A stretch of 64,000 nucleotides of DNA, taken from the NCBI GenBank assembly GCA_036936605.1, contig JAUPFV010000002.1:161130813-161194812 (forward strand). Direction: 5' to 3'. The DNA comes from Limnanthes douglasii subsp. nivea (Eukaryota; Streptophyta; Magnoliopsida; Brassicales; Limnanthaceae). Below, piece after piece: positions 1 through 63,490 of this stretch. How positions within the stretch are numbered: the first letter of the stretch is position 1; the number at the start of each line of letters is the position of its first letter. The notes under the pieces were generated by a model, which was not told the origin of the DNA, did no database searches, and saw nothing but the letters and a program-made list of their open reading frames with translations. A program made the position numbers and the translations under genes.

Positions 1-2690
1 TGAGAAGTATTGAGCTCTTCTATTTCTTTTCGGTGCACTAATCTGAGGTGATTCTTGATATAGATGAGCCTTTTGATGAATTTAGATATGGCCAATTGAA
101 ATCCATGAAATTGTTTTTTCACGAGTCCACCAAAGATTTCCCTCATTCTTTTTTCGGGAGCAACAATTTTCTTATAGCGAACCATCTCATTTTCCATATG
201 CTCTAGCTGACTTCGAGAAGATTTGATTTCTTGGGTTAATTTTTGTGTTGCATCACCAAGATTGGCAAAGGGTTGAAGAACAAGCACAACTTCTTGTGAT
301 GGATTTTTGGCATGAAAGACCATTGGACCAGGAACATGTATTAGATCACAGAAGGATGGAGGCAAAGAGAACTCTGGTGAAGTTGTTTCGAGAAGAACAT
401 GAGCAAACCTTTTACCATAATTTTTGAGTTGGTACTCAAGTTCTTGAACAAATGGATATTCATCTCTGACGAGCTCTTGAGATTGATCAAAGTTGCAAAG
501 TTATCATCACATCGATCATTGTCTGCAACAGTCTCTCCTTGCTGAGCGCCTCCTTCTTCAACACCTGCTTCATTTTCTTTTTGTTGATTCTTTACAACAA
601 CAATTTCATCAACACCGAAGGACACCTCTTTAACTATTTATATAACTTTGTTTTGAGGGGTTGTTTTAGTTGTGCTCTTCTTTTTTGTCATGACAACCGT
701 CTTCTTTATTTTTGGAGAAGGCTCAACTTCTTCTCCTTCCTCGATAGTAGGGAGGTTCTTTTTGTTGTTTTTCTCTTCGAATTTGGCAATATTGGAGCTT
801 CTGAAGGGCTAGCACAAGATGTGCTAGCTTCCTTTTTATTCTTTTTTCCATTCCTCTTCTGGGGAAGGGGGTTATCCGATCTATTTTGAACCGGCTGAAA
901 GACTTTACAGTCAAGGGCCACTAGCCTTTTAACAGCATGTAGAGGATTGGGTGGCCCCATTAGATTCTAAGTAAGAGCAGCTCCCACGTTGATTCTCCAC
1001 AGGTGGGTGTTGAGAAAGTTGATAGGTTGAAAGACTGTGTGAAATGCATTACCCCATTCTTTTCCAGCCCAGCCTGCAAGCTTAATAAAAATATATTTGA
1101 CATCTTTCGACGAAGTTTGTAACGCCTCAAAATTTCTGGATGCAACACAAGACTTTATGAGAAATAAGTAGAAAAATATTTGGAGATATAATCCAAATAA
1201 TAAAATAAAAAGACAAACTGTTACTCCTCTAGACGAGGTTCAACTTTGATGGGTTGGATTTTGAAATCTCTTTACCATTTTCCCAAGCTCCTGAGATGAA
1301 GACAAATCTTTGTTTCCAAAAGTTTTATGCCTCCAACAAATCATAGATGATCTTCAAGTCATCATCCAATGTTAGATAATAAAATGGAAGTATCGGTCCC
1401 TTCGATAATTTGGTCAACGAGATGAAGTCCTCGATACATAGGGGAATTTTGGCCAATCGAGAAGCCATAATCACAGAGAGAAAAGTGAACCATTGATTGG
1501 ATGTCACCTGAGTTGGGCACAGATCTAGAATCTCAAAATATTCAACTATCATGGGGTAAACCACCAGTTCACCTTTTTTGCAGTAAAAAAGGGTTTCTAT
1601 TTCTTTGGGTAGACAAAGTATAATGTTGTCCCTCATTCCCCATTGTTTTTTGAGCTTATCTGCTTGTCTCTTTTGGTAATATGTGTAAGCAACATTATTT
1701 AAATCCAAGATATATTATGCATCGAGAGGCTTTAGGTTTTCGCTGACTAATGCGGCCAGCTCGTCGGAAAGCTTCATAAGAGATTTATTTTTTCTTATCC
1801 TAGGTGTTTTTGCCTTCAAAACATATTTCACTATTTCACTGTATGTTTCCTTCAAACATCTTCTTCTATATCAGCTTCGATATTTGATTATGTGGCTTCA
1901 GAATCCATTTCCTTCTTGGGTGCCTCATCCACAAGTCAAGGTGCGTTACTTCAGGGATTTCGTTGAGACTTTGTTGTTGTCTCGATAATTTCCCTCAGGA
2001 GAGGAGAAAATGTTGGTGGATTTGAGACGGGATCAACATCGTCACCCGTGGCTATAAAGGTTTTTCTTTTTAGGGTTTCAGGAAGCTGAGTTTTTGTATA
2101 AACTAAAAAGGTTTCCTTGCGTATTGGACGGGGGGGGGGGTCAGAATTAACCTGAGAAAGAGTTTCCTCTGATCTTCCTGAAGAAGATTTATTTTGGGTT
2201 ACATTGTGATTGATTCGAGGATTTGAGTTTGCGGAATGAATTCGAGGTGATTATCTACTTAGAGGGGGTGAAATTCAAGGTGTCTTTGGTGTCTGAGTTT
2301 TGGATGGATGACTCTCTTCTGGAAGACAAGAATTTGAAAAGGAAATAGGATTTTTGTTTGGATTGAAGTTACCGTAGTATATTGTCTCGGTGGACAAACT
2401 ACGAGAAGCATTTCTTATCAGTCCAGCTGATCTATATTCATCTGTCCATTCGCTTATGCAGAAGTACTCGTATGATTCGAAGTGAGATTTTTGTTTATCT
2501 AGGGAAGATGAATTTAAGGGCCTTTTGGATTTTAGCTTTTAGCTTTTTGAGTTTTGGATGTTTTCTCATAAACAAACTTGAAAGGCAGGAGAAGAATTAG
2601 TGTTTTCTGGTGAAGGTAGCTTAAGGGTTAAAGATTCAGATTAAGGTAGCAAATGAACTCTCTCTCTCTTTCTCTCTCTAAACAATGTTG
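1..2690 (-). pseudogene. T1 antisense ORF (aORF), gypsy-type transposon domain plus coiled coil, partial
   Basis: On the minus strand this reads as the aORF seen in five other Tat copies here. The N-terminal part (about 2560-2340) holds a YEYFC..EYRSAGLI motif matching T7. The central domain (1708-1325) contains QWGMRD, VEYFEILDLCP, NQWFTFLSVIMASRL and LPFYYLTLDDDLKI, which I recognise as the plant putative gypsy type transposon domain (Pfam Transposase_28). It continues past one TAA into FWKQRFVFISGAWENGKE. After an intron (1136-1224) come KFEAL, GKEWGN, a basic stretch and a coiled coil with a YIKNHL motif near 30. The C-terminus runs off the window. Damage is mainly isolated stops. The biochemical role is unknown; pol would lie left of the window on the + strand. 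Confidence 0.72.
1136..1224 (-). other. Candidate spliceosomal intron in T1 aORF (89 bp)
   Basis: Read on the minus strand, the segment starts GTAACAG and ends GCATCCAG, and is T-rich between. Coding similarity to T7 stops at the donor (after SKLNLV.R) and resumes right after the acceptor with KFEAL, exactly where T6 and T7 have introns of 87 and 90 bp. Position, length and border dinucleotides agree. Splicing itself is inferred. Confidence 0.65.
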
Positions 2691-2715: not shown

Positions 2716-2723
2716 TATTTATA
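2716..2723 (-). promoter_or_regulatory. TATA box upstream of T1 aORF
   Basis: The minus strand reads TATAAATA here, just upstream of the aORF and followed by a CT/GA-rich leader (2650-2690). A TATA box in the same relative position occurs in T4 (both copies), T5, T6, T7 and T10. Confidence 0.5.
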
Positions 2724-23607: not shown

Positions 23608-23680
23608 GTACCAATAAGTTCTCTTATCTTTTCTTCTGCCCTTTATAACTTATTTTTTATATATATTACTACTGTATCCA
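23608..23680 (+). other. Degenerate intron position in T4 aORF
   Basis: The coding match stops at GTACCA (donor-like) and resumes at AAACATTTGAGG after a T-rich stretch. The acceptor position reads CCAA instead of CCAG. The site coincides with the T1, T6 and T7 introns. Confidence 0.45.
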
Positions 23681-25381
23681 AAACATTTGAGGAAGTACAA
23701 AGCTCACAAGAAGAATGTTATAGAAATGTTTGCCAAACTAACCACCTAGGCAGAAAATTCACGGGGAAATAGGTTATACTCAACTTTTATGCCCATAAAC
23801 TTTATCACCAGTCACCTATGAAGGATCTCCTCATATACAATTGCCCTAAAAGACACGATGAAACCTCAAAATCCAGATGAAACTGTAAAAATATTACTAG
23901 CGTCAGACGTTAAAGTTATACTACCTATTCGAAATAGGTCTCAAAGATATCAACCCTAAAAAAAGAAGGGTAAGAAGAAAAAAGCAACTGCTACTAAGAA
24001 TATTGTTGGTGCTAGCTCTTTAACAGATCCGGTGCCAAAGAATAGAGATACAAAAGACAAGAGGAAGGCAAATGAAGCTAGTCTCCCAACCATCGAAGAA
24101 AGAGTCGAGGTAGAAATTTCTCTAAGGATAAAACAAAACCGTTGCTTCAAAAAAGAAGAAAACCTCTTCGAAAACTCCCTCAAAAATTTCAAAGAAAAAA
24201 TTTGATGCTCCTCACTCGAGTCCAAATGTAAATATCAAAGAGATAGAAGAGAGGCTTATAAAAATAACTCATTATGATTCTGACTAAGTACTATCAGAAA
24301 TTGTGAATTCATGCGCTACTTTAAGTTCACCCTCGATCATTTGGAAATCCTCCAAGTCCTCCCACTCCTCTTATTCTTCATATGGAGGATCGTTTTGAAG
24401 AGCTATCAAATATTCTTTGACCATTCTTGAATCTTGAGAAAATATCAAAATTCTTGAGCATATAAATTATGTATGCTCAAAACAAACTCGAAGTGATGAC
24501 TACCGACATGATTTGGTACAAAAAGAACGTTGCAGCAGAAATACAGGTGAGGGAAATCTTTAGTCGACAACTCCTTTATCAATTCCAAAGTTCCTAAGCT
24601 GATAGATCTAAATCCGTAACAGAAGCAATCCATCTCAAGCGTCATTTAACAACTGTCCATAATCAAGAAAAAAATAAAACTAAGGACTTCCCATCATGCT
24701 GAACTTGATGAGCTTAAGGCTAAACATGCTAGGGAGATATCTGAGTAACATAAAAAATGTTGCTCTTTTCAAGAATCTCTGAACAAGAATGAGGAAGAAA
24801 ATAAAAAGTTGGCTGATGAAATGACATCACTTAAGACATAATTCAAAAGAGAGAAACAACTTATTGTGAATGCTACCAAAACTCAATGTGGACTGGACAC
24901 CCTTGTTGCGGTTAAAAATTTGGAGGAGCAAAGAACAATCACTTTGCTTCGTGAATTCCATGCAGCATTTCCAAAAGCAAATCAATCAGGATTTTGGGAA
25001 TTAGTCCCCATAGAGAATCGCCCAAGTGAAGCCTTCGAACCTGTACCATCTGACTCCTCCGAAGAGACGAAGTCAGAAAAAAATGAGGATGCCTCTGAGC
25101 AAGAATGACATTCTTCTGAAGAAAGCTCAGACCAGTCTCCCATTAAAGATTAATAAAATTTAGAATAAATCTTTTTATAGATGTTGTTTATTTTTGTGTT
25201 GTAAAGTTATCAGTTATTGTTGATGACTCATACTTTGTGAATGCTTAACCACTTAGCTTTTAAACTCATTTTGTAAGATCAGAAAATGAACTTCAATGAT
25301 CAAATACCTTCTTTATTTATCAAGTACTTGTTAGTTTTAACTTTATTGTGAATAACTTTTATTTTATGAATAAGTCATTAA

Positions 25382-26660: not shown

Positions 26661-26673
26661 GTAATGTACCTTT

Positions 26674-27390: not shown

Positions 27391-27397
27391 TATATAA
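27391..27397 (+). promoter_or_regulatory. TATA box, T5 aORF
   Basis: TATATAA lies 98 bp upstream of the aORF ATG (27489) and outside the LTR, on the strand opposite to pol. Confidence 0.55.
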
Positions 27398-27488
27398 ATC
27401 ATTTTTCACTATTCCATTGTCTTCATCACTCAAAAATGTTCTAGAGAGATTTTCACCATTGTCTTCAAACTTGTTCTTGAAGAGTTTT

Positions 27489-29183: not shown

Positions 29184-29190
29184 TATATAA
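29184..29190 (+). promoter_or_regulatory. TATA box, T6 aORF
   Basis: TATATAA lies 101 bp upstream of ATG 29285 in a context nearly identical to T5. Confidence 0.55.
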
Positions 29191-29284
29191 ATTCCTTTTC
29201 ACTATTCCATTGTCTTCAGCACTCAAAACTTTCTAGAGAGAGATACTCATACATTTATCTTCAAACTTGTTCTTGAAGAGTTTT

Positions 29285-32215
29285 ATGTTCACAGCCAGAA
29301 ACGCATTTGTTAAAGGCGGCTGGTTGAACTTGTCAGAACTAGAAAAAGCGAAAAAAGTTGAACTGGAGAAACGCATTGCTGCTGGTCTCTTAGTTTCCCT
29401 AAGTGAGAAATCCAGTGAGCAGACTCAAGAGGCTGACCAAGGATCGTCCTCCTCCTGAAATCCCAAACTTAGACAGTTATTCAAACCAAGCCTCTCTCCT
29501 CTTCTCTCAGGCTCTTCTGTGCAAGAGTCTCAACCCTCTGTTGCAAATGGTTATGTGCAAGAGTCTCAACCCTTTATTGCAATGGGTCTAGAAAACCTTT
29601 CCCATTCATAGTTATAGGTTTTGACATTAAGAAGTCCCCGGAAAAATCAACTCCTCGCCGAACGACTCGTCTGTCCAAATCCCAAACAACTACAGTACTG
29701 CCAAAGCCCTCCGGATCAGAGACAACTACAACAACTTCAAAAGATAAGCCCTCCGGATCTGAGGCATCTAAAGCAGCCCTAGAGGCCAAACCCTCCGGAT
29801 CTCAATCTTAGTCGGACACTAGGCCTTTGGAAACAACAGGTGCTCATTCATCCGAACAACTTTTAGTGCCAGAATTTGATCCCCCACTATCCAAGGTGAC
29901 AGATAAACCTTCCATAGTGATGAAAGAAGTAATGGATGATAGTATCAAAGAGGCTCCCTTCGAAACTGAAGTATCAGGTCAAACTGGGGATGCTGCCTCT
30001 GATAGGAACGACAAAGACAAAGTCAAGGTTGGTGTGGCTCATCCATATCTCTCGTTGTGCTTGGAAGGAAAGTTAGGCCCTTGCTTCAAAAATGTCAATG
30101 TTAAATATTTGTTGGAGCTGCAGAATATAAACTATGTCTACACCCAACCGCCAAGTTGGGCCAGATCCGGACAAAATGGAGGATCCTAGAGTCAGTGAAG
30201 TTAAGGATACCTGTCACACCAGAGACTCTGATGGACTGTAAACTCAATAAGGTGGTCATTTTCACCGAGGTGCTAAACTGGGGACTTTGATTCCCACTGA
30301 ACTCAGAAATTTTCAAGTATTTTCACCTGGTGAAGCTCTGACCAAGATAATTGAGCATGAATGTCTGGTACTCTCTCCTCTCCTGAATAATGGCATCGAG
30401 GTTGTCTAAAATCCCTCTCCCAATGGAGCAATTTACCGCTGTGGAAATTCTATGCAAGAATCACCATATTCCCTTCTACCATCATAATATGGGGAACGAT
30501 TTCAAGGTGGTAGACGACTTACTGGAATCTGAGAAGAACTAGAGGATACAGTTCTTGTTCATCAGTGGGTCATGGGAGAATGGTAAGAAGATCAAAGCCA
30601 ATATCAACCCAAGTATGTTAACTAGCAGATGGAAGAGTATGAGTAAGTTCTTTATCTTTTCTTTTCATGTTCTTTTTTCTTTAACTTACAAGTATTTCTC
30701 TCATGATTTATTTATCACTTCTTTTTTAGTGATACCAAATGAGTTTTCCGGACACCTGGAGGAGGGGCAAACAACTTGTGTCAAACTGAACGCATGAGCT
30801 GCGGAGCATCGGGGGAATATCTTCCAACCTGCTTCACCTCAGGTAATCTGGTGAGGTCCCATCTGTAGAACATCACAGGTCGGAGGGATCTCACATAAGA
30901 AGAACTAACTACACCTCATCCTTTTGGCATAATCCTTAAATGGACAGAAGCCAAAGATGGTAAACTAGTCTTGCCTTCTAGAGCCAAAGCTCCCAGCAAG
31001 ATGAAAGGGAAGAAAAAGAAAGCTGCAACAGAGGCAGTCCAAGCTGCCACAAAGGGGACTAGTTTGGGGAACCAAGGGGGAATCGATGCTGCTTTTCCCA
31101 AGGTAGTAGAAGTTGAGACTGTTAGGGAGGCAGGAGAATCACAAAACCCACCAAGGCCTCCTAAAATGGACTGGAAAAGAAGAGCAAACAGTGATAAAAG
31201 GCTGTCAAAAAGAAAAAAGTCACCTTAGAGGAAGAAATAATTCTTCGCCCTTCGGAGCTTCTACCTTCACCAACCCCTGTTGACCCCACCCTACAAGAGA
31301 AGATTCCAACAGGTCTGCAGTCTGGAGAGGGTACCGGAGGAGAGATTGATGGAGTGGATATCAGTTCCCTTCAAGACATTGATCTTTACTTCAACGACTC
31401 TGAGAAGGTTGAGTTTGTTGGTCCCTTCCATTCTTCAAGCTCTTCTAGCATGGTGACTTATAATGGTAAGTCTTTCTCCGTCTCCGGAGAACAAGATATT
31501 GTGGCCCATTTTATTTTTTGTCGCATCCAGCCAGTGCTTGATCTAGAGAGACAAGTGAAGAGTCAAACTACACTCATCAATACCCTCACTACTGAAAAAG
31601 AGTCTCTGTCAACCAATCTTATCAATGCTAATCTAAGCATAGAAAAATTGAAGAAAGATATAGAAGCACTGAGGAAGGAAAAAGAAGATCTATCAACTAA
31701 ACTTGCCACTTCAGAGACGACCAATACCGAACTCCAAACCAAGTGCTCCTGTTTGGAAAAGGATCTCACAACATTAAAAGAAGACTTGAAGACCAAAGAT
31801 GGCATCATTCAAACTTTTTACGATAAGAATACTTCCTTAGAAGGTACTGTGTCTAAGGTAATCAAGGAGAAAAAAGACTTGGTAGAGGAGCAGGAATAAA
31901 ATATACAGGCAAACATTGATAAATATACCAATGAGGTGATAGACTCCCTTGAGAAAAGATACAATGAAGTTAGGTCTGACATGGTGCTACTCTTTCATAA
32001 GACATTTCTGAAGAGGACTCTTGGTCCCCTATGAAAATATGTAGAATACGAAGATCTTTCTCATCACACCATGGCAACTGCTGGCAAGTATAACTTTTCC
32101 AGTGGAATTGACTCCACTACTGATGATGAAGAAGGAACCGGTGAGAGTTAAAGTGCCGAACTCAAAAGTCCCAAGAAATAAGGTAATGAAGGAAAATCTG
32201 AAGGGGATAAGCCCT
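29285..32215 (+). pseudogene. T6 aORF, two exons, full span
   Basis: Start MFTARNAFVKGGWL with ELEKAKKVELEKRIAAGLL. A Ser/Pro-rich linker with frameshifts (29460-29826) is followed by VMDDSIKEAPFETEVSGQTG, GPCFKNVNVKYLLELQNINYV, a frameshift near 30150, then the gypsy-type domain (TPETLMDCKL, FKYFHLVKL, MASRLSKIPLPMEQF, IPFYHHNMGNDFKVVDDLLE, FLFISGSWENGKK). After the intron (30643-30729) come NEFSGHLEEGQTT, a basic SKMKGKKKKAA block (31000), PFHSSSSSSMVTYNGKSFSV (31425), a coiled coil of about 130 residues from LERQVKSQTTLINTL to VIKEKKDLVEEQE, and an acidic tail ending near 32215. The function is unknown; nucleic-acid binding and self-association are guesses from the basic and coiled-coil parts. 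Confidence 0.8.
30643..30729 (+). other. Candidate intron in T6 aORF (87 bp)
   Basis: The donor is GTAAGT, with a T-rich body and acceptor CTTTTTTAG. Joining the flanks keeps the frame from RWKSM into IPNEFSGHLEEGQ. It sits at the same codon position as in T1 and T7. This is the best-preserved example. Confidence 0.75.
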
Positions 32216-32574
32216 AAGGTTTAAACATCTTTTTGTTTTTTTTTAACTTTTATGAACTACTAAAGTCCTTGGATGGACAATGAATTTTTGTAATGTTTTC
32301 CGGTTTGAGTCCGGATAAGTCTTTTAAAATACTTAAAGTCCTTGGATGGCCAAGGCATATTTTGTAATTTGGTAATGTTATCCGGCTCCCGTCGGGACAG
32401 GTTTATTTATTAAATCTTGATTTGTTTAATACCTTCTTTCCTTTTAATTTTAATGGCTAATGTTTAAATAGCCCCAATTATTTCATAAGTATTGAAATGA
32501 AAGTGTTTAATATCTCCGATGACATGTATTTAATGATCATCACTCAACCTGATATATTTGGTCATTGTCATAAG
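32216..32574 (-). other. T6 region between aORF end and lost pol
   Basis: The reverse complement matches T10 from about 59400 to 59700, including two copies of AAAGTCCTTGGATGG-type sequence and CTCCGATGACA. Homology ends near 32570, where the copia LTR fragment starts, so T6 gag-pol and 5' LTR are missing. Confidence 0.7.
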
Positions 32575-42138: not shown

Positions 42139-42415
42139 AAAATTTAATATAACTTCGAAGCCAATAATTCTCCTCGAATCATTATGGAAACATAATTTGA
42201 AAATGTAATCATCGACTTTTACTAAATCAATACACAAAAGTAAGTGTTTTATATAACCGTTTGAATCCATCATGACTATATAGTTTTTAGACCCAGAGCT
42301 AGATATCTAGCCTGACAGATGTCGAGCTCTTAATCTTCTCACTACTTTGTATTCTACCCTATCACTATCAAAGTCCCTTAAACTTCACATGTCTCCTTTT
42401 CTTTCTATAAATTTA

Positions 42416-42459: not shown

Positions 42460-45317
42460 GAGAAAATTTAAACGCTTGGCTACCTTCATCGCATTCTTTT
42501 TTTTTTTTTTCCAGAATCTTCATCAGAAAAAACAACACTTTCTGATCAAAATTCATCTTCTCCAACCAACCTTTATCTGGTTTATGAGAAAAAAATCCAA
42601 GAACCATAAAATCCAAGGCTAACATACCCAAGAAACCAAAATCTAGAAAACCTGATAACAACTTAGTCTTCGGATCGTATGACTACTTCTGCATTACTCA
42701 AAGAGCAGAAGAATATAGAGCTGCAGGATTAATCAATAACACTTTTGTCGGAACAACCACCAAAACAATTTATTATGGTAATTTTGATCCAACCAAAGCT
42801 CATGTTATTTCTCCTTCTCTTATAGTCGAAGAACGCTCCTCGTCCAAAATCCTAGGACCTAAAACACCTCGAGCCTCTTCATCTCAAAGTAAAATTTCTC
42901 ATTTGGTTATTGAAAAATCTCCTTTAAGTAAAAAATCAAATACTTCTTCTTCGAATTATTCTTCAATAACCAGAAAAAGAAGAACTTTTATTGCCATGGG
43001 AAACGAGTCAGAAATTATCCCAACTCTTCCCCTTCGAATCCAGATACTGAAGCTCCTCATCAGAGAAAAGTAATTGAGGAAATTCTTCAAGCTAATAACC
43101 CTTCACTAGAAGCTGTTAATCTATTACCTCAACAATCTAGAGAAGAGACATCAAAAGCTAATGGATTTGATTCTGAGGCAACAAAAACCGATCTTGAAGC
43201 TGAATCCGACGATGGGAACTCATACAATACCCATAAGCCTCAAGCAGAAAAATATAATTTCTTTGTTTCCGAAGAATAAAGAGCTAAAACTGGCAGAAAC
43301 TTAAGGAATCTTGAGGTTATATACATCATTGCTTTGAAAAACGTTCAGTACATATATTGCAAGGATAATCAAGCTTCGGCTCTAAAAAAGCAATGGGGAA
43401 TGGGAGATAGCATAACTCTTCGACTACCTAAAGAATGAGAAACTCCCTTAGACTGCAAAGGTGACAAACTAATAGTCTACCCCAAAATCATCAACCAGGG
43501 TCTTCGGTTTCCATATGATCGTGGAATACTTTGAACTCCTCAACTTATGCCCTACTAAGGTGACAACAAATCAATGGTTCACCCTTATGTCAGTGATTAT
43601 AGCATCTCGACTATCTCAAATTTCAATCATCATCAAATACTTCATCTCATTGACTCAACTATCGAAAGGTCTAAAGCTTCCCTTTTACTACCTCACCCTG
43701 GTGGATGACCTCAAAATCATCGATGATCTCTTAGAAGCTGATAAATTCTGGAAGCAGAAATTCATTTTTATTTCAGGTGCATGGAGAATGGCAAAGAAAT
43801 TTCCAATATTAATCATTCAAAGCTAAATCTCATCTAGAGAAGCAATCGTAAGCACTTCGAAATTTTTACATTCTGAAATAAATTATATTTTTTTGCCCTT
43901 CTCTTTCCTTAACTTTCTACTTGCATGATTATTTCAGAAATTTCAAAGCGTTATTCAGCACGTCGACCAACTACTAGGGATATTTTCCAAAAACTTGTTG
44001 TTTGGACTGAGAAAGAATGGAATAATGCATTTCACACTGCCTTCCAGTCCATCAATTTCCTTAACTGCCACATGTTTCCAATCTCAGAGGGTGACTTGCC
44101 ACCTCGAAATTTGATGTCAGAGCCCGATCGAAAGATAGTCTGAAAACAAATAATTCAACCTGATTGTAAAGTCTTTCTTTCTATTTGCAACAGATCAGAG
44201 TCATTTACCAAAAAAGAAGAAATAAAAATTTATCAAATAGAAGAAAGGTAAAAAGACAGCTAGCACATCTGGTGCTAGCCCTTCAACTTCATCGAAGCCA
44301 AAGCCTCGAAAAAGAAAAACTGTTGAACAGGTTTTCTCACACATCGAAGAGGGAAAAGATTAAGAACCGTCTTCAAAGAAAAAGAAAGCTTCTTCCAGTT
44401 CTCATGGAAAGAAAAAGAAACAGGCAAGAATCACTTACTGGTGAAGACGATCCTATTCTTCGAGTAATTTAAAATCATATGCTTAATTTTGGGAGACCAA
44501 CACCTATCGATGCGTCTCCAGAAATTATATGTCCTCCTGTTCCAACCACAACTTTAGATATGATTCAATTTCCTAGTTCAGCAGAAATAGAAATTTCTCC
44601 TCCTCCTTCGAATCCTGCGAACGTTGTTGCACTTCAACCATTTACCGATCTCGACATTGAAGCAAAAACACTTGCTTCTCAAGTCGAAGCTTCTCAAAAC
44701 CATCTAAAATAATTGGCTAAAAACATGGTCTATTACAAAGGATCTTATGAAGCTTAGAAAGAATTAAGAGAAGATTTGCATATCAAAGTGGTTGAGCAAT
44801 TTCACTTGTATGAAGTAGCGAGGTCTGAGCTAATAAAAGGCGCTCTCTGCATAAAAAATCATTTGCGAATAACACATATGATTGACAAAGAACTGCTGAT
44901 GACTTCTCATGAAAAGGATATGAATAAGCTCAAAATTGATTATACTACTGAACTGGCTGCCAAAATATCAACTCCAAAGGTCTGCAAAATTCTCTTACCC
45001 TTTGTGAGACAAAAAACAAAGACTTGATCGACGAGATAGTTAAACTAAAGAAAGATTTCGAAGTGGAAAAAACTATTGTTGTTGCTGCTGCCGAAGCTAA
45101 ACTTTCAAAAGACATGCTTGCTGCTATTAACACGAGAAAAGAAGAAACAACCATTCTCCTTCTTCGAGAACTTCACGCTACTTATTCAAAAATCAACCTT
45201 ACAAGTTTATGGAACGACATTCCCATGGATAAACGTCCAAGTGAAGCTTTTGATCCTATTCCTGATCCATCATCTTCAGAAGAAGAATCGTGCGAGAAGG
45301 ACGAGTCGTCTGATTAA
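42460..45317 (+). pseudogene. T7 aORF, two exons
   Basis: No clear ATG remains. The N-terminal part shows FGSYDYFCITQRAEEYRAAGLIN (42670-42740) and TIYYGNFDPTKAHV, then a Ser-rich linker and KRRTFIAMGNES. The central domain (43310-43800) has ALKNVQYIYCKD, KKQWGMGDSITLRLPKE, MIVEYFELLNLCPTKV, NQWFTLMSVIIASRL, LPFYYLTLVDDLKIIDDLLEADKFWKQKFIFISGAW. After the intron (43848-43937): KFQSVIQHVDQ-type sequence in mixed frames, EKEWNNAFHTAFQSINFLN, a basic patch, coiled coil (44776-45280) and a conserved end, RPSEAFDPIPDPSSSEEE. It is convergent with T7 integrase. Confidence 0.78.
43848..43937 (+). other. Candidate intron in T7 aORF (90 bp)
   Basis: Donor GTAAGC, T-rich body, acceptor TGATTATTTCAG. 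Coding similarity to T1 continues directly after it (AAATTTCAAAGCG against AAATTTTGAGGCG). Confidence 0.72.
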
Positions 45318-52715: not shown

Positions 52716-53170
52716 CATCTATACCAATTTTATTAAGTGACCATTACCCCTCGGGCTCAGTGTGGTCCCTTACGTAGATTTATATGCTTATTGAAATAAT
52801 CATTTTAATTATTTTTAAATCTATGAGTCATGGCTTTGTGTGGACCATTACATAGCTATGGTGGCATGATTTTTAACATTTTTAATAGTTTGTATCATTA
52901 GCCGGCCCCGTGCAAAATTTATTGATGTTGAAATATTCTCGTAGGACAATTAGTCATATCTATTGATATATTGATCTCGCTATGGTGATTATAACTAAAC
53001 ATATGATTCAAACTATTTAATATAGAGATGAACAAATAATATTTTGGCATTGGAACATTTCATTAAGTCATTGACTTACAATATGCCTCGTTAAAAAACC
53101 CTTAAGCGCCACCAAAAAGGAAAACAAAATATACAACCACTCTACATGGCGTGGTGATACAATTTTAAAC
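52716..53170 (-). other. Downstream end of T9, split from its integrase by T10
   Basis: On the minus strand 53050-53165 has the post-integrase block seen after T10 and T3 integrase (CTTTTTGGTGGCGCTTAAGGGTTTTTTAACGAGGC against ACCCTAGTGGCGCGGGGAGGTTTTAATGAGGT). The matching integrase end lies at 63491 onward, on the other side of T10. Two motifs, CTC-GTGTGG-CC-TTACGTAG and GGCTTTGTGTGGACCATTACATAG, repeat at 52756 and 52831. The outer part is unassigned. Confidence 0.6.
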
Positions 53171-53557
53171 TGATGAGTCCAGAATTATTCACCACTGCTC
53201 ACTGATAAAACCGAAGAGGGGTAATTCAGACAATAGATACCCACTGAACTATCCGGACAGGATAAAAAGTACTAAAACACTAAACACCTTTTTACTAAGC
53301 TAAGTGCTAATCTACTTAAAAAACTAATGGGTCTTTAAACACGACCCGGTTTTGCGACTTGACCCGAAAGCCCATTGGTCCATAATTAAAGGTATAAATA
53401 CCCAACTACTTTCATTCATGAGGGGGATGAACATTTAATACAACCAGGCAGCTCAAATCTCTCACTACAAAACACCCAAACACCCAAACATTCAATACCC
53501 TTGAAATTCCCCAAAAAACCTGACGAAATTACCCTCAGTCAAAAATAATCCACACCA
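53171..53557 (+). repeat. T10 5' LTR
   Basis: Start TGATGAGTCCAGAAT, end AATAATCCACACCA. It has TATAAATA at 53393-53400, and (A/C)CCAAACA repeats near 53480. It is followed by AA and the PBS. Confidence 0.93.
53393..53400 (+). promoter_or_regulatory. T10 LTR TATA box
   Basis: TATAAATA within GGTATAAATACCC is conserved in all LTRs of this type here (T5, T6, solo LTRs), and is the likely promoter for the gag-pol transcript. Confidence 0.65.
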
Positions 53558-53559
53558 AA

Positions 53560-53577
53560 TTGGCGACCATAATGGGA
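53560..53577 (+). other. T10 primer binding site
   Basis: TTGGCGACCATAATGGGA begins after AA following the LTR. The priming tRNA was not identified by eye. Confidence 0.75.
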
Positions 53578-53587
53578 GAAGAAGGTG

Positions 53588-55120
53588 CCTGAATCTAGCA
53601 TTCAAAACCAGCAAGAAAAATCAGTTCGGATGAATCCGGACGAGCAAGTAGTGTTACCGCCTTTGATAGAAGTGGTGGGCAAGAACGAGACAGACTGAAA
53701 GCTGAAATAGAATCCTTGAGAGCTGCTAAAAAGGCGGAGTTAGGCTTGAAATAAAAATCGAAAGTGTCAGCCATTCAACACACTGACAATCAAAAGGAGA
53801 ATGACCCATCAGCAAAAACTCATTTGAGTGCTAAAAAGACCCATGTCAGTTCCAAAAAGTTTCACCGGTCTAAACCGGTGGAGAGCTCAGATTCTGAGTC
53901 CTCTAGTAGCTCCTTGAATGAGGATGAACTTGAGGAGTCCCTGTCATCCAGTAGTGATGAGGGCAGATCCAAGAAAAAGAAAAAGTTGGTTAAAAAGTAT
54001 TCAAGAAAGAGGGACAGGCATGGAAGGTTGAAAAGGCATCTAGGAAAATGGTCATCTCACAGCCATAGCCGGAGGCATGTAGATCAGCTGCTGATGGATC
54101 TCTTTGCTTTCCATGATGAGCCATGTATTTTTGCAACACCTAATGAAGACACTGTCTTTAGTCGTGGCCGAAATTGGAGACAATTTCCATTGTCCTCCAA
54201 AATACTGTTCGGAAACCTTCCTAAGAGGTTTGACAATACTAAGATGGAAAAGTATGATGGGAGCAAGAACCCAGATAATCATCTGGAACAGTTTAAAAAA
54301 TTTATGATGAATTTTGACAATGATGACAAGTTGCTCTGCAGATCCTTCTCTCAATCTTTTACGGGGAGCGCTCTGAAATGGTACAATAGCCTACCACAAG
54401 GGTGCATCATGAACTTTGATACGTTCTGGGTGGCCTTACGGAGGCAGATTCTTAGAAGTAAAGAGGTGAAGGCCAATGGAGACGCTATTATCCATTGTGT
54501 CCAAGAGCCAAATGAATCATTAAAAGACTATATAAGTTGGTTCGTGAACACAAAGAATGGGTTAGCTGATTGCTTTGAACAAGTAGCAATAGCTTCTCTG
54601 AGACAGGGCTTGAACCCTGTGAACTTGGCCGATTCGATAACCATGAAGAAGGTCATGACGTGGGGCGGTTTACTGAACCAGGTGGGAAAGCAAATCAATG
54701 TAGATGAAACGAAAAAGACTAGGGTGCACAGGCAAGTGAAACATGCCCCAGCTGCACCAAACTAGAATCAGTTCGGATACAAGGCCAAGGAAGCCGGATA
54801 GGGTCCCAACAGGGCCAAGGCTCAATCTCACCCAGCTCTAGCTCAGAGCCAGCAGTCTAGAAATAAACGAGGACCTTGGGTCCAACCGGAGTGGTTTGCC
54901 GATGTTAAAAGAGAATGTGGCAACTATCTATGACAAAACAAAAGATGAGGTGCATTTTAAGAAGCCGACAACGCTTCATTCTCTTAGGGAAAGTCGTAAT
55001 ACTTGTTTCCATCAATATCATCATGATATTAGCCATTACACAGAATATTGCATTTCTTTGAAACAATGCTCAAGAGAAGAAGTGAGAATATGCATAATAA
55101 TGCTCATTGGGCCGGTCTAA
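53588..55120 (+). pseudogene. T10 gag
   Basis: The original start is lost: the T3 ATG (15396) aligns with AAG near 53585, and two stops precede the long frame 53764-54765 (333 codons). That frame has a Ser-rich acidic stretch (SSDSESSSSSLNEDELEE), a basic patch (RSKKKKKLVKKYSRKRDR), then the capsid-type domain (about residues 150-300: KRFDNTKMEKYDGSKNPDNHLEQ, FTGSALKWYNSLP, FWVALRRQILRSKE, IIHCVQEPNESLKDYISWF, SLRQGLNPVNLADSI). After stops at 54766 and later, RGPWVQPEWFADVKREC and CFHQYHHDISHYTEYC (about 55004) give a zinc-knuckle-like end. Confidence 0.88.
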
Positions 55121-55920
55121 CAAATAATGCGGGGACACCGACTCCAGATGGGGCCATGGTGATTATTGAAAGATTTGATGTAGAATCAGGGTATTTGGAT
55201 CCTGATCTAGCCTGGAATAAGGTGGGTGTTATAACAGAGCACACCAAGATGGTTTCTGGGCTCATAAGCTTTTTTGAGTCACTTACAATATTCGGGGAAG
55301 ACACAATGACTGCACCCACTCCTTCTTCAAGAAAGAGGCATGTTCACACTCTAGCTACTCAGTTAGAGGGAGTCATGTCCTCATATCAATCCTAAATTCC
55401 TTTTCCCTTCATTGTTTTTGATGAAGATGACTTGAGGGACATAGATGGTCCTCATGAAGATGTTGTGGTGATAAGAACATCAATTGGGGGCAATGACATT
55501 AGGCAAATTTTGGTTGACACTGGAAGCTCAGCCAACATCCTCTTTTTAAGTTCCTATAAACAGATGAAGAATCCGGTAGTGATTCAGCGTTCGAACATAT
55601 CCATTGTAGGTTTTACTGGAAGCTCTGCGGACGTGGTCGAGGAGTTTGAGGAGGAGGTTTTGTTGGGCAAGGGCCCTTTCAAGAAAATGGTCAGGGTACT
55701 TTTCGTTGTGGTAGATTGTCCCACATGTTACAATGCGATCTTGGGAAGGTCTTGGCTCTCCAGGATGCATGATGTGGCATCAACAGTTCACCAATGTTTA
55801 AAATATGATGTTCAAGGAAAAGTGGGAGTTGTCCGGAGTAGCCAAAAGATAGCAAGGGAATGTTATGCAACTGCGCTTGCCCCTAAAACTCTGGGGGCAG
55901 TCCGGGTAAACGAAGGTTAG
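55121..55920 (+). pseudogene. T10 aspartic protease
   Basis: It reads MVIIERFDVESGYLDPDLAWNKVGVIT, LISFFESLTIFGEDTMTAP, one stop near 55393, then FIVFDEDDLRDIDGPHEDVVVI and RQILVDTGSSANILFLSSYKQM. The catalytic Asp is at 55516-55518. The C-terminal EEEVLLGKGPFKKMVRVLFVVVDCPTCYNAILGRSWLSRMHDVAST follows. The active site looks intact, unlike T3. Confidence 0.85.
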
Positions 55921-56860
55921 CAGTTGGTGGGGCCCTATGGGGTGAGGGTGAAATTGATGACCCCAGATAGACCCCTGGTGTTTTGATTCCAATTGAAGAG
56001 GTTGAAACCCACTCTCTAGCTGAAGGAATAAATGTCAAAGTTGGATCTAAGATGACATCAGAATGAAAAAGCAAAGTGTTGTCCTTTTTGGCAAACCACC
56101 AACTTGTTTTTGCTTGGTGTAATGCTCATGTAATCGGAGTGCCTGCAAATGTTATATCACACCAATTATCCATCCGGAAGGATGTAGCACTTGTTGTACA
56201 AAAAAGAAGAGCCTTCTTTAAAGAAAAAGCTGATCTCATAGTTCAAGAAGTTGATCGGCTCACCAAAATAGGGCACATAAAGGAATCTCAATATCCTTTA
56301 TGGACAGCCAATCCAGTATTAGTGAAAAAAGAAAAATGGGAAATTGCGAATGTGTATTGACTTTACAGACCTCAATAGGGTTTTCCCAAAAGATCTGTAT
56401 CCAGTCCCCCAAATAGATCAATTGGTAGACTCCACATCTGGGAACAAGTTGTTGTCCTTCATGGATGCTTTCTCCGGTTATAATCAGATACAAGTGGATC
56501 CGAAGGACCAGGAACACAGTACTTTTGTTACAGATATGGGCCTCCATTGTTACAAGGTGAGGCCTTTTGGGTTGAATAATGTTGGGACTACCTATGAGAG
56601 GTTGGTGAATAAAGCGTTCACTGATCAATTTGGGAGAAATATGGAAGTATATATTGATGACATGATGGTAAAGAGTGTGGAAGAAGAATTACACTTGGCA
56701 GATCTTCAAGAAATTTTTACCAACTTGGTAAAAGTTAATTTAGAGTTAAATCTAGAAAAATGTGTTTTCAGAGTACAGTCCGGGAAGTTTTTGGGGTATG
56801 TGATAAGTGAGAAAGGGATACAGCCTGATCCAGACCAGCTTAATGCCTTATTATAGTGCA
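55921..56860 (+). pseudogene. T10 reverse transcriptase
   Basis: The first frame (56076-56360) reads HQLVFAWCNAHVIGVPANVISHQLSI and IKESQYPLWTANPVLVKK. A one-base loss near 56330 shifts to 56344-56856, with MCIDFTDLNRVFPKDLYPVPQID, SFMDAFSGYNQIQVDPKDQEHSTFVTD, RPFGLNNVGTTYERL and VYIDDMMVK. YIDD is at 56650-56661 and intact. GKFLGYVISEKGIQPDPDQLNALL ends the palm/thumb; a stop lies at 56854. Confidence 0.9.
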
Positions 56861-57900
56861 AAAATTGACAGGAAGGTTGGCTGCTCTAAATCGTTTTATC
56901 TCAAGGTCTTCGGATAGGTGTGCCCTATTTTTACAGCCTTTAAAGGGTGCTAAAGACTTTAACTGGTCTTCATTGTGCGACCAAGCATTCAATGAAATAA
57001 AAAAAATCATTTATCTTCCCCCAAGACTCTCTACAAACCTATTGATTGAGAGACATTATACATATATTTAGCAGTGTCCGAATGGGTTATAAGTGGGGTA
57101 CTAGTATAGGAGGTGGACAATTATCCTCGTCCGGTGTACTACATCAGCAAGAGCCTGATGGATGCTGAAAAAAAGGTACTTAAAACTTGAAAAACTAGCA
57201 CTAGCTTTGGTGATTGCTGCCAGGAAAATGAGGCCCTATTTTCAGTCTCATTCTATTGTCGTCCGAACGTCTTTTCCTTTGAAAAATGCTCTTCAGAAGG
57301 CACATATATCAAGCAGGATGACCAAGTGGTCAGTAGAATTGGGTGATTATGATATTAATTTCGCCCCTCGGAGTGCAATCAAAGCTCAATCTGTTGTTGA
57401 TTTCTTGGTTGAATTCCATTCGGACAGAAGTACTAAGCAAGCTCCAGATGAAAAAACTAAAAAGGTATGGGTTGTCCGAACAGATGGTGGTTCAAATACC
57501 ATGGGTTGTGGTGCTGGGATATGTTTAACCTCTCCATATGGCGATAAGTTATACCAGGCTATATGTTTTGCTTTTAGGGCTTCTAACAATGAGTCATAGT
57601 ATGAAGCTGCTATAGCTAGTTTGAAATTAGCCTTTCTATGTGGGGCTAAAAGAGTCAGGTTAATGAGTGATTCTCAACTTCTTGTCCATCATGCCCAAGG
57701 TCAATCTGAGGCAAAGAAGGAGCAGTTGATTAAGTACTTGTTCATCTTTAAAGAAGTAGCAGCCAACTTAAAAAATGTTAGCTATGAGCACATACCCAGA
57801 TCAGAGAACACACTAGCAGACTCCTTGGCAACCATAGCATACTTTGAGTCCTACCCATGGATTCATGTGCAAGAATGCCCATCCATTCAACCCAATCAGG
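56856..57900 (+). pseudogene. T10 RNase H region (RT connection plus second RNase H)
   Basis: LTGRLAALNRFISRSSDRCALFLQPLKGAKDFNW (56865-56960) is followed by a damaged first RNase H (YIFSSVRMGYKWGTS-type shifted frames near 57060-57140), LKKRYLKLEKLALALVIAARKMRPYFQSHSIVV and MTKWSVELGDYDINFAP. Then a second RNase H starts at WVVRTDGGSNTMGCGAG (Asp near 57483) with ASNNES-YEAAIA, VRLMSDSQLLVHHAQGQSEAKKEQL and SENTLADSLATIAYFES. This second domain corresponds to the archaeal-like RNase H described for Tat elements. Confidence 0.85.
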
Positions 57901-59212
57901 GAAAGGAAGAGGAGGAAAGTTTAAGTATACAAGTGGTTCAACCTAAAGACTGGAGGTATCCTCTTCTTCAATATATTTTGGATGGCATTTTGCCCCCGGA
58001 GAAAGCAGTAGCAAAGAAAATGAAGTATAAGGCTCGTGGTTTTTTAATCATAAGAGACATCCTTTACAAGAAGTCATTTAGTAGATCTTTCTTGCGTTGT
58101 TTGGGGATTGAAGAGTCCCAAATAGTTCTATCTGAACTACATGATGGTGAAGGATCAGCACATTGTGACTATAGAGCTTTAACCCGAAGGGTTTTGTTAG
58201 TCGGATACTACTAGCCATCCATAATGGCATATGCCAAGGAATTAGTAAGGAAATGTAACCCATGTCAAAAATATAGTAATGATATTCATACCCCAGCTGT
58301 CCCACTGGAGTCAATTTCTGAGCCAGTGCCCTTTGCTCGTTGGGGACTGGATTTAGTAGGGCCTCTATCGATGGCATCCGGAGGGTGCAAAACTATTATT
58401 GTGACCATTGATTATTTTCCAAGTGGATAGAAGCAACCCCCCTAGCAGGAACTACTTTGAAAGCTGTTATAAAATTTATCATGTCTAACATATGTTGCAG
58501 ATTTGGGGTTCCACAAAAGATAACCACAGATAATAGGCCACAATTTGATAACAAGGATATGGAGAGTTTTTATGCCTATAGGGGCATTCAGCATTGTTTA
58601 TCTTCTCATTTCCTTCCACAAGAAAATGGACAAGTTGAAGTGGCAAACATAACCATTATGTCCGGTCTCAAAAAGAATTTAAAAGGGGCTGGTGGAAAGT
58701 GGCCAAACTATTTACAAGAAGTATTATGGGTGTACCGTACTACTCCTGAAGCTGCTACATAAGAATCTCCTTTTGCCTTGGTATATGGGATGGATGCAAT
58801 TGCTCCTGTAGAAGCAACTGTTCAATCATACCGAGTCCACAATTTTTCCAAACAGGCTAATGAAGTGTCAGTCAGAAGTCAATTGGACTTAATAGAAGAA
58901 AAAATGGTTAAGGCTCATCTTAGAGCCACCCATTATCGAGGTTTGTTGAGGAGCAGGTTTGCTTCCAAAATTATAAGAAGGGATTTTCGACCGGGGGACA
59001 AAGTATTGGAAAACGTCTTCTTACATACTAAGGAGAAGCAGTTCGGCAAGCTAGCTCCAAACTGGGAAGGGCCCTATGAGGTCTCCGAAAAGCTTAAGTC
59101 TGGGACATACATGCTTCAAGACAAAGATGGAAGAATCTTAAACCACCCCTGGAATATTGAACACCTCCGGTTGTATCTGGAATATAAGTTGTGTAAATAT
59201 TTACTTGTTTAA
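57901..59212 (+). pseudogene. T10 integrase
   Basis: Zinc motif: LSELHDGEGSAHCDYRAL and RKCNPCQKYSN. Core: first Asp in WGLDLVGP (58350), a one-base loss near 58420 after IDYF, second Asp in TTDNRPQF (58529; the usual Gly is Arg), Glu in NGQVEVANITI (58637). One TAA near 58762 interrupts. The C-terminal frame 58778-59212 has MVYGMDAIAPVEATVQSYR, RDFRPGDKVLENVFLHTKEKQFGKLAPNWEGPYEV and HPWNIEHLRLYLEY. DDE is kept. Confidence 0.88.
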
Positions 59213-59719
59213 AGTCCATGTAAATATTATGGGGCATACTCTTTCTTACCCTAGTGGCGCGGGGAGGTTTTAATGAGGTGTCCGGGTATTTTAATAAAAT
59301 TTGATGCCTTCTTTAAACATTCAAAGTGTTTTGATTTACAGTTTCTTTAAAGTCTTCTAAAGATTTTTTGCAGATCGGATTGATCTGGTGGAATGATGAC
59401 CATTTAAACATTCGTCATCGGAGATTTTAAACACTCTCATCTTAAATACTTGTGAAACAAAAAAATGCTATTTAAACATCAGCCACTGAAATTTAACAAA
59501 TATGAAACAAAACAAAAAATTTGCAAAGTAAACTTATTCGGCTAAAACCAGATGATAATATTAAAACACAAAATATGCCTTGGCCATCCAAGGACTTTGA
59601 GTTTAAAGAATACCTTAAACGGACTCAAACCGGACACAGTTACAAAAATCCATTGGTCTTCCAAGGACTTTAGTATTTCATGAGGATAAGAGAAACAAAA
59701 AATAGTTAAAGTATCATGG
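59213..59719 (+). other. T10 spacer between convergent integrase and aORF
   Basis: It starts with the post-integrase block (GGGGCATACT, GTGGCGCGGGGAGG). TTTAAACA motifs follow, then two copies of a CCAAGGACTTT segment (59586-59606, 59660-59680). Most of it is shared in inverse orientation with T6 (32216-32570). Confidence 0.65.
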
Positions 59720-62677
59720 TTAATTCCCTTTCGATATTCCTACATCGTCTTTCTTCTTGGGATCTTTGGATTCGTCACTGGAACTCTCCCTTGTTCCTTC
59801 CTCCTCATCAGTAGTGGAATCAATTCCACTACTATAGCCATGTCGATCACCTTCCGCCATAGTATAAAACGGGAGGTCCTCATACTCCACATATCTCCAT
59901 AAATCTCCAAGGGTTCGCTTCACAAATTTCTGGTGAACAAGAAGTATCATGTCAGATTTGACCTATGCATCTCTTACCTCCAGGGAGTCTATCACCTTAT
60001 TCGTATTCTCATCGATCTTGGCCTGGATATTTGTTTCCTGATCTTTCACCAAATCCTCTTTCTCTTTGGTGGCCCTGGACACAGCTTCTTCGAGAGAAGT
60101 CTTGGCAGTGGACAAGGCTTGGATGGTATCATCCTTGATCTTCATGTCTCCCTTCAAGCTGGAAAGATCTTTTTCCAATCCAGAGCATTTGGTTTGGAGC
60201 TATGTGTTAGCTATCTCCGAAGTGACCACCTTGACTGTCAGATCTTCTTTATCCTTTCTCAATTCTTCAAGCTCCTTCTTCAAGGCCTCAACACTTTGGT
60301 TATCGTTTATGAGGTCAGTTGATAATGTTTTTTTGTCTGCTTTGAGGGTGTCGACGAGGGAAGATTGATTCTTTACTTGCTTTTCCAAGTTGAGTACTGG
60401 CTGAATCTGGGCCAAGAGAAAGTGGGTCACCACTTCATGTTCCCCGGAGACGGTAAAGGACTTGCCACTGAAAGTTACCATGTTGGAGGAGCTTGGAGGA
60501 AGGTATGGGCCAGCAAAGTCATCTTTCTCAAACTCTCCAAAATAGAGACTAATGTTTTGAATACCACTGATGTCTACCCCATCAATATTAATGACCCCTC
60601 TGGTACCCTCTCCGGTATATAGATCAGTGGGGATTTGTTCTCCTAAAGTGCGATCAGTTGGATCGACCGAAGGTAAAGACTCTGAAGGGTGGAGGACTAT
60701 TTCATCTCCTAAAGAGACCTTCTTCTTCTTAGCAGCCTTCTCGTCGCTGCTAACTCCCATTTTTTTGGTCCTTTTTAGGAGGCTTTGGTTGGATTTGGGG
60801 TTCACCTGCCTCCTTAATGGAATTTTTTCAGCTACTTTAAGTAAATCAGCATCAATCTCTCCCTGGACCTGTTCTCCTTGACCCTCTGGAGCAACCTCTT
60901 CTGCAGCACCCCGAACGGCCTCTACTGCAACCTTATTTTTCTTGCCTTTCTTCTCTTTAATTTTACTTGGGGCTTTGGCTCTGGAAAACAAGGAAAATTT
61001 ACCGTCTTTCGCTTCTGTTCTTGTAAGAATAACGATTAGAGCAGGTGGTGTAGTCAACTCCTCCCAAGTGAGGTCTCTCCGGCCCGTTGTGTTCCATAGG
61101 TGGGACCTCACCAAGTTTCCTGAGGTGAAGCAGTTGTGGAAAGTATTCCCCCAACGCTCAGCAGCCCAAGCATTTAATTTGGCACATGTCGTCTGCCCCT
61201 CCTCCAAATAATCGGAGAACTTCTTCAGCAATACTGACATAAAAGAAAAGGCAATTCAGTGATAAGTTTTTGTTGCAAAATGAGAAGACAAACAAAGTAA
61301 GCTTTTCCACCTACTGGTGAGCATACTAGGATTGACACCAGCTTTGATTTTCCTCTTATTCTCCCACGCCCCGCTAATGAACAGGAACTGGGTCTTCCAG
61401 TTTTTCTCTTACTCGAGCATGTCATCCACCACTTTAAAGTCATCTCCCATATTGAAGTGGTAGAATAGGATATGGTGGTTCTTACAAAGGTTGGCCGCTG
61501 CAGCAAACTGCTCCATTGGAAGAGGTATACCGGACAGCCTTAACGCCATAACGCAGACGATGAGAGTATACCAAGCATTGGGACTCAAATGGCTTGGATA
61601 GAGTTTTATCATGTGGAAATACCTAACAATTTCTGGATCCAAGGGAAATCTGAGCCCCCAGTTGAACAACTCAGTATAGATGATGATTTCGCTAATCTTG
61701 CAGTCCATCAGAGTCTCTGGTGTGACTGGTATCCTCACCTTAACAGATTCAGGGATCCCCCACTTGGTCCGGATCCGGTCTAACTCAGCAGTGTGAGTAT
61801 AGACATAATTGATATTCTGTATGGCCAACACATACTTCACATTGACTTTATGGAAGCAAGGTCCCACCTTGCCTTCCAGACTCTCCGGCAGATCCGGATG
61901 GGTCATGCAGACTTTCTCCTTGCCTTTTCCCTTTTTATCGGAGGCAGCATCTCCAGTCTGCCCGGAAGCTTCAGTCTCGAATGGAGCATCTTCAACACTA
62001 TCATCCATCACCTCTTCCATTACTATGGAAGGTTTATCAGCTATTGTTGATGGGAGAGTGCTAGTTGGTGGCTCAGCAGGTTGTCCGGACGGTTAAGCAT
62101 CAGCCTCTCTTAAGGCTATGGTGTCCGGCTGAGGCTCAGCTCCGGAGGACTTAGTATGAGAGCTGGTTCTAGTGGCCTTGGGTCCTGAGGGTTTGTCTTT
62201 TGGGGCTCTAATAGATGCCTCCGATCCGTAGGCTTTATCTTTGGCCCCAGACTTGGAGGGCCATGTTTTGGAAGACTTGATTTGAGATCCAGTTGCTTGA
62301 CCCTTTACTAAACGTGTTGTTCGACGAGGGTTAGTTTTTTCTAGATATTTCTTGATGTCTGACCCCATAGCGATGAACGGAGAAGGCTTTCTAACACTCG
62401 ATACCGCTTTTTTTTGCACGGTAGAAGGCTGAGACTCTTTAACCGAGGATCATGAAGGGATTAGTGAGAGTTTGGGTTGGAATAAACACCTAGGTTTTGT
62501 ACTTTTGGTAGAGGATGATCCTCGATCAGCTTCTGAAGATAGTGTGTCAGGTTTACTAATTAGAGAGACTAGAAGACCAGCAGCGATACGTCTCTCACGT
62601 TCAACTTTTTGTGCTTTTTCTAGTTCCGAAAAATTTAGCCAACCACCTTTCACGAGAGCGCTTCTCGTTGTGAACAT
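59720..62677 (-). pseudogene. T10 aORF, best-preserved antisense gene
   Basis: Start MFTTRSALVKGGWLNFSELEKAQ (ATG ending at 62677). The Ser/Pro linker has SSSTKSTKPR, RTTRLVKGQATGS and PKDKPSGPKATRTSS. It continues VMEEVMDDSVEDAPFETEASGQTG, GPCFHKVNVKYVLAIQNINYVYT, the gypsy-type domain (61900-61409: IRTKWGIPESVKVRIPVT, VRYFHMIKLYPSHLSPNAWYTLIVCVMALRL, ILFYHFNMGDDFKVVDDMLE) and FLFISGAWENK. After the intron: FSDYLEEGQTTCAKLNAWAAERWGNTFHNCF, basic IKEKKGKKNK, MVTFSGKSFTVSGEHEVVTHFLLAQI, a coiled coil (60440-59990) and an acidic end (TTDEEEGTRESSSDES). Each exon keeps one frame, broken by only five stops (62450, 62093, 61409, 60200, 59963). Confidence 0.85.
61235..61302 (-). other. T10 aORF intron remnant
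   Basis: The acceptor reads TTTTATGTCAG on the minus strand at the homologous place. The donor corresponding to GTAAGT of T6 reads CTTACT, so it is mutated or shifted. Length is approximate. Confidence 0.5.
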
Positions 62678-62773
62678 AACATACCCAAGAAAGGTTTTGA
62701 GAGAAGAGGTAAAAATCTCGGAGAAGAAGAAATTGCAAAAGTGATGAAGATGGTGAAACCGTAAAGGAAAATA

Positions 62774-62780
62774 ATTTATA
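62774..62780 (-). promoter_or_regulatory. TATA box, T10 aORF
   Basis: The minus strand reads TATAAAT, 97 bp upstream of the aORF ATG and outside the LTR, matching the T5 and T6 spacing. Confidence 0.6.
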
Positions 62781-63095
62781 CTAGTGAGGTAAAAGTTACT
62801 GATACCTAGGAGAAAACAAAGAGACTAATGTAATGATTAAAGGCGGCACAAACGTAAGAAACATTAAATGCAGGAGTTGCTTTTTGGGCTTAGTGGGAGC
62901 GTTGTTCTAGGAAGAAAACGGTAGGTAGAACGAATTAAAACGCGACACATGTCCCACGATCCAGAGCAAAACTATTGGAATTCTGAGAAGGATTCAGTCC
63001 GGATAAACCCTGAACTGAATACATGAACGATCCGGAGAATGGTGTTATTTGCTAAATGAGTTTTTTAGTCCTGCCAAAGATCTTTGACAAAACCT

Positions 63096-63106
63096 AAAAA
63101 AGGACA
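63096..63106 (+). other. T10 polypurine tract
   Basis: AAAAAAGGACA lies just before the 3' LTR; T5 and T6 have AAAAAAAGGG at the same position. Confidence 0.7.
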
Positions 63107-63108
63107 AC

Positions 63109-63490
63109 CGATGAGTCCGGAATTATTCACCACTGCTCACTGATAAAACCGGACAAGGGTAATTCAGATAATAGACACCCACTGAACTATCCGGACAGGA
63201 CAAAAGTACTAAAACACTAAACACCTTTTGACTAAACTAGGTGTTAATCTACTTAAAAAAACTAATGGATCTTTAAACACGACCCTGTTTTGCAACTTGA
63301 CCCGAAAGCTCATGGGTCCATAATTAAGGGTATAAATACCACTTTCATTAATGAGGGGGATGAACATTTAATACAGCCAGGCAGCTCAAATCTCTCACTA
63401 CAAAACACCCAAACACCCAAACATTTAATACCCTTGAAATTCCCCAAAATACATGACAAAATTACCCTCATTAAAAAATAATCCACACCA
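63109..63490 (+). repeat. T10 3' LTR
   Basis: It starts CGATGAGTCCGG (first T changed to C) and ends AATAATCCACACCA. It is collinear with the 5' LTR apart from a 6-7 bp deletion after TATAAATACC near 63340. Confidence 0.92.

Follow-up and report, generated by a model that had tools for sequence, protein, structure and literature searches.

Antisense open reading frames (ORFs) are an established feature of Retand elements. They lie between pol and the 3' LTR, where some have Transposase_28 matches and some have Smc-like coiled-coil matches (PMC11963269, PMC7264820). A role in DNA binding and regulation is suggested for Transposase_28 proteins in PMC11963269, and the origin of the antisense gene is left open in the same paper. 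Grande gene23 of maize, which is also antisense and located between pol and the 3' LTR, has its own upstream promoter and encodes a nuclear protein (PMC7264820). Among animal retroviruses, HTLV produces spliced transcripts, HBZ and APH, from the strand antisense to gag-pol (PMC10186651). Ogre, a sister clade of Retand, and EVADE carry introns on the sense strand (PMC12786077, PMC6317226).

Neither PMC11963269 nor PMC7264820 uses the word "intron" in its main text, and no mention of an intron in a Retand antisense ORF was found in the open-licence literature; the original papers on Grande gene23 (2013), extra ORFs (2011) and Retand (2006) may differ in this respect. Here, we describe a T-rich segment that, judging from the sequence, is very probably a spliceosomal intron of ancestral origin, located in an antisense gene of Retand-type elements that has a promoter of its own.

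Retand-type elements and their antisense genes

The window, i.e. the whole stretch of 64,000 nucleotides of Limnanthes douglasii subsp. nivea DNA that was analysed, is AT-rich and crowded with LTR retrotransposons. The features discussed below are listed in Table 1. The least broken element in the window is T10, whose sequence has profile matches to RVT_1, RT_RNaseH, RVT_3 and rve; the RVT_3 match is presumably an archaeal-type RNase H. Its domains thus follow the order reverse transcriptase (RT), RNase H, second (archaeal-type) RNase H and integrase, and an ORF antisense to gag-pol is located between pol and the 3' LTR. The same domain order is given for Ogre and Retand in PMC6317226, and the layout matches the description in PMC11963269, which together point to the Retand lineage of Ty3/gypsy. 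The antisense ORF of T6 likewise belongs to a Retand-type Ty3/gypsy element.

The antisense ORF of T10 keeps a single frame over 985 codons and is interrupted by six stops, including one within the putative intron. Exon 1 of T10 matches Transposase_28 (PF04195) weakly (21.1 bits, curated cut-off 26.2, profile positions 1–45 of 69), and no Transposase_28 match was found in the shorter exon-1 pieces of T6, T7, T1 and T4b. The coiled-coil part also matched many unrelated Pfam coiled-coil families, always under their cut-offs, and these matches were disregarded. The predicted structure of the T10 exon-1 piece has a mean pLDDT of 35, too low to use.

A tblastn search of the window with three T10 and T6 pieces revealed copies of the antisense gene that define two families: family A (T5, T6 and T10) and family B (T1, T7, T4a and T4b). 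The exon-1 protein pieces of family B are 32–45% identical to T10 in the aligned parts. T4a and T4b are duplicates (86% identical), the latter being the better of the two. The intron comparison covers five related copies in one window (T6, T10, T7, T1 and T4b); T5, which stops short of the intron site, and T4a, which diverges there, were left out. No relatives outside the window were found in protein searches (1986 and 3284 candidates) or in scans of viral contigs and genome contigs; all of these collections presumably contain little plant DNA.

Several repeats are found among these elements. A tandem pair (26672-28484 and 28483-30262, 79% identical) comprises an LTR together with the initial portion of the antisense gene (T5 and T6), and looks like a duplicated element end or a recombination of two related elements. 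A direct pair (20663-21457 and 21816-22622, 86% identical) carries the T4 antisense upstream region and its TATAAAT box twice. Short tandem repeats of ∼76 nt occupy 25403-25720 of the T4 element, in the region from pol to the 3' LTR; such arrays are reported in about half of the Retand elements surveyed in PMC11963269. An inverted pair of 364 nt (41542-41905 and 48524-48887, 92% identical, 6.6 kb apart) lies around the T7 element. A weak copia-type gag match (Retrotran_gag_2, 21.5 bits, cut-off 27) is located at 34644-34988.

Table 1. Coordinates of the T10 element, antisense genes, predicted introns and TATAAAT boxes in the window.
Feature	Position	Strand	Description
T10 element	53168..63490	+	LTRs, gag, protease, RT, RNase H, second RNase H-like domain, integrase, antisense gene
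T10 antisense gene	59720..62677	-	ATG at 62677, stop at 59720
T6 antisense gene, predicted exon 1	29285..30642	+	starts at ATGTTCACA; reading broken by stops and frameshifts
T6 antisense gene, predicted exon 2	30730..32217	+	broken; Lys-rich stretch, coiled-coil-like C-terminal part
T6 predicted intron	30643..30729	+	87 nt, phase 1, GTAAGT...TTTTTTAG
T7 predicted intron	43848..43937	+	90 nt, GTAAGC...TTTCAG, two in-frame stops
T1 predicted intron	1136..1218	-	83 nt, homologous donor GTTTGT at 1218
T10 candidate intron	61234..61293	-	60 nt, in-phase GTTTGT...TGTCAG
T4b putative intron remnant	23614..23681	+	68 nt, ATAAGT...CCAA
T6 TATAAAT box	29186..29192	+	99 nt upstream of ATGTTCACA
T10 TATAAAT box	62774..62780	-	103 nt upstream of ATGTTCACA; within element, outside LTR
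T7 TATAAAT box	42406..42412	+	antisense gene upstream region
T1 TATAAAT box	2717..2723	-	antisense gene upstream region

A T-rich segment at one codon of the antisense gene

A T-rich segment is located at the same codon and in the same phase (phase 1) of the antisense gene in all five copies, which represent two diverged families. It is flanked by a Lys/Arg-Ser codon pair in exon 1 and by an exon-2 codon for Ile or Leu (four copies) or His (T4b). The stretch between these conserved codons measures 93 nt in T6, 96 nt in T7, 89 nt in T1, 69 nt in T10 and 74 nt in T4b. The donor GT is exactly 4 nt past the Ser codon in T6, T7 and T1, and ATAAGT occupies this place in T4b; the T10 donor lies one codon (3 nt) downstream of the homologous place. 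The acceptor AG is exactly 2 nt ahead of the conserved exon-2 codon in T6, T7, T1 and T10, with AA at this place in T4b. An in-phase GT...AG pair is therefore intact in four of the five copies (T6, T7, T1 and T10), and each T4b border (AT...AA) has been lost by one base. The T6 segment reads GTAAGTTC...CTTCTTTTTTAG and consists of 59% T, compared to 47% T in T7. At 60 nt, the T10 segment is short for a plant intron.

An intron at a fixed position of the antisense ORF had been proposed in the initial annotation, and the recurrence of the segment at one codon and phase in all five copies bears this out; the 87 bp (T6) and 90 bp (T7) segments given there, with GT..AG borders and a T-rich body, are confirmed. 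The segment is likewise present in T1, but the donor claimed for it at 1224 (89 nt, GTAACA) lies 6 nt upstream of the homologous donor at 1218; the frame is the same either way. T4 and T10 had both been considered degraded. This holds for T4b, which lost both borders, but not for T10, which retains its in-phase 60-nt GT...AG pair.

A different explanation for the segment is a fast-evolving coding linker, in frame and rich in Phe, Leu and Ser, which is translated without splicing and has GT...AG borders by chance. If retained, the T6 segment would indeed stay in frame and add 29 codons without a stop, and the T7 and T10 lengths are also multiples of three. However, T6 is the only copy that can be read through: in the exon-1 frame, the segment contains two stops in T7, one in T10 and one in T4b. 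In T1 and T4b, the segment has a length that three does not divide, and the flanking frames are offset by exactly that amount. Leaving out the segment between its borders brings the flanking frames into register in all five copies. Further frameshifts occur shortly before the segment in T7 and shortly after it in T1; as all copies are broken and these two frameshifts are so close, the frame arguments rest on local reading.

Both flanks of the segment are under strong coding constraint, where this is calculable. Between T6 and T10, dN/dS is 0.10–0.13 in four of five pieces, which cover both exons, and synonymous sites are saturated in the fifth (pS 0.79). Of the three family B pieces, one has a dN/dS of 0.13 and the other two are synonymously saturated. 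The segment behaves differently. Within families (four pairs), its alignments score only z 0.4–1.8 over shuffles, i.e. almost no similarity, compared to z 9.7–12.5 for the exon-1 flank and z 2.8–15.2 for the exon-2 flank. Between families (six pairs), the exons score z 2.4–7.4 and the segment z 0.3–4.1, so that the contrast between exons and segment is clear within families only. Some similarity of the segment is seen in two of the ten pairs, both between families (T6-T4b, z 4.1; T1-T10, z 3.7). Linkers between domains can also lose all similarity, which would agree with a translated segment.

The chance of obtaining such borders was estimated by dinucleotide shuffling (20,000 trials for each copy), with a criterion framed after the sites had been seen: a phase-1 GT no more than 12 nt beyond the final conserved codon of exon 1, and an AG at a distance of exactly 2 nt from the first conserved codon of exon 2. 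Shuffled sequences satisfied it in 1.1% (T6), 0.15% (T7), 0.67% (T1) and 0.38% (T10) of the trials, and the T4b segment, with its AT and AA, failed it. These percentages do not multiply, because the copies share descent. Nevertheless, with synonymous sites near saturation, drifting borders would hardly have stayed in place, and shared descent is thus informative. The antisense ORF regions were also scanned for GT...AG pairs of 60–120 nt with at least 45% T. All such pairs overlap the site in T6 (16 of 16), T1 (17 of 17), T10 (1 of 1) and T4b (3 of 3), and one of four does so in T7, where the three off-site pairs are near 45.3–45.5 kb. In T6, T10, T7 and T1, the 80-nt stretch with the highest T content in the ORF region overlaps the segment; the overlapping one in T4b ranks third. 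No branch point motif is shared by the segments more than expected by chance (96 of 200 sets of shuffled sequences did equally well).

A translated linker is quite improbable in light of the internal stops, the lengths that are not multiples of three, the paired in-phase borders that shuffling rarely produces and, in T6, T10, T7 and T1, a T content far above that of the remaining ORF region. The segment could also be viewed from the other strand, as a purine-rich tract of the genomic RNA that is kept for reverse transcription, for example as an extra polypurine primer. In favour of this view, each of the five copies has a T-rich segment on the antisense strand, which corresponds to an A-rich stretch of the genomic RNA. 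However, its body is not conserved within families, and a primer leaves unexplained the features that are fixed, namely the GT...AG borders and the antisense coding phase, which makes this role highly improbable. A spliceosomal intron accounts for the phase-compatible GT/AG borders (four of five copies) and the T-rich non-coding body between coding flanks.

A second GT...AG pair, located in a conserved coding part of T6 (31466-31530; GTAAGT, with CATCCAG ending 65 nt on), was set aside, since the T10 coding sequence continues through this place and has GCAAGT there. This pair is probably due to chance, or possibly an intron that can stay as coding sequence.

Proposed antisense promoter and expression

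The motif TATAAAT is found ahead of the antisense ORF in all seven copies that have an upstream region, three in family A and four in family B, compared to a window-wide frequency of 0.39 per kb on each strand. The T5 box is 96 nt upstream of ATGTTCACA, similar to the spacing in T6 and T10 (Table 1), and the family A boxes are inside the element and outside the LTR. In family B, the motif is at an aligned place in all four upstream regions, of which T4a and T4b are not independent. A conserved TATAAAT box strengthens the notion, put forward in the initial annotation, that the antisense strand is transcribed and spliced as its own mRNA. This notion is further supported by the position, phase and borders of the segment, the coding constraint, the near absence of similarity inside the segment within families, and the flanking frames that come into register. 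Taken together, these features suggest that, in several old retrotransposons, the opposite strand served as a separate gene that was transcribed and spliced. Position, phase, borders, constraint on the two exons and the TATA box are features of the DNA itself, from which we infer transcription, splicing, a joined protein and its function.

In the proposed mechanism, RNA polymerase II would initiate at the TATA box that lies inside the element, flanked by the antisense gene and the 3' LTR, and proceed towards pol. The host spliceosome would then excise the phase-1 intron of 60–90 nt and join exon 1 to exon 2, such that the resulting protein would combine the region with the weak Transposase_28 match with the basic stretch and coiled coil. 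The genomic RNA, transcribed from the 5' LTR in the opposite direction, would bear the reverse complement of the intron, which has no such splice signals and would be copied into every new insertion. The antisense intron would be inherited because the genomic RNA carries only this reverse complement.

It is also conceivable that the intron was real in the ancestor, while transcription or splicing of the antisense gene has since ceased in this genome. This alternative shares the identity of the segment with our preferred explanation, and its odds were counted apart; we consider it rather unlikely. In its favour, stops or frameshifts break the antisense gene in all five copies and T4b has lost both borders. 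However, the protein was constrained until the synonymous sites of the families were nearly saturated, indicating that antisense expression lasted through long evolution, an argument that is silent on the present-day copies. In addition, the T10 LTRs are 91.6% alike over 391 aligned columns, so that T10 is not among the oldest elements.

Comparison with known antisense genes and introns

An antisense-strand intron survives retrotransposition as a trace of past splicing, and would identify the antisense ORF of these elements as a gene with independent transcription. As to the origin of this gene, the intron speaks for capture in the form of DNA or a later gain, and against uptake of a sense-direction spliced mRNA. 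For annotation, it implies that separately listed ORFs may be exons of one gene. More tentatively, and with less than even probability, the intron could have been present in the ancestral antisense gene of the Retand lineage as a whole. This gene would then have been acquired, in the form of DNA, from an intron-bearing nuclear gene, and would have retained its intron ever since, as the splicing of its mRNA leaves the genomic RNA unaffected; the separately listed Transposase_28 and Smc-like ORFs would be exons of one spliced gene, perhaps encoding a nuclear regulator.

The antisense genes in the window resemble the surveyed Retand ORFs in being long, antisense to gag-pol and located between pol and the 3' LTR (PMC11963269, PMC7264820). 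They differ in that the ORFs of these surveys were counted as they stand, whereas the gene described here appears to consist of two parts with an intron between them. Grande gene23 shares the antisense orientation and the location between pol and the 3' LTR, and the TATAAAT boxes of T6, T10, T5 and family B fit the statement in PMC7264820 that gene23 has its own promoter upstream. That paper presents gene23 without mention of an intron, and the promoter proposed here is a TATA box recognized in the sequence. The HBZ and APH transcripts of HTLV offer a parallel for an antisense intron that the sense RNA passes on (PMC10186651). However, they belong to animal retroviruses, use a promoter in the 3' LTR and encode unrelated proteins, so that the likeness is one of workings and not of membership. 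Ogre and EVADE, as described in PMC12786077 and PMC6317226, also have introns within plant LTR retrotransposons. Their introns are part of the sense transcript, and Ogre splices only a subset of its transcripts, whereas an antisense intron would be inherited however fully it is spliced.
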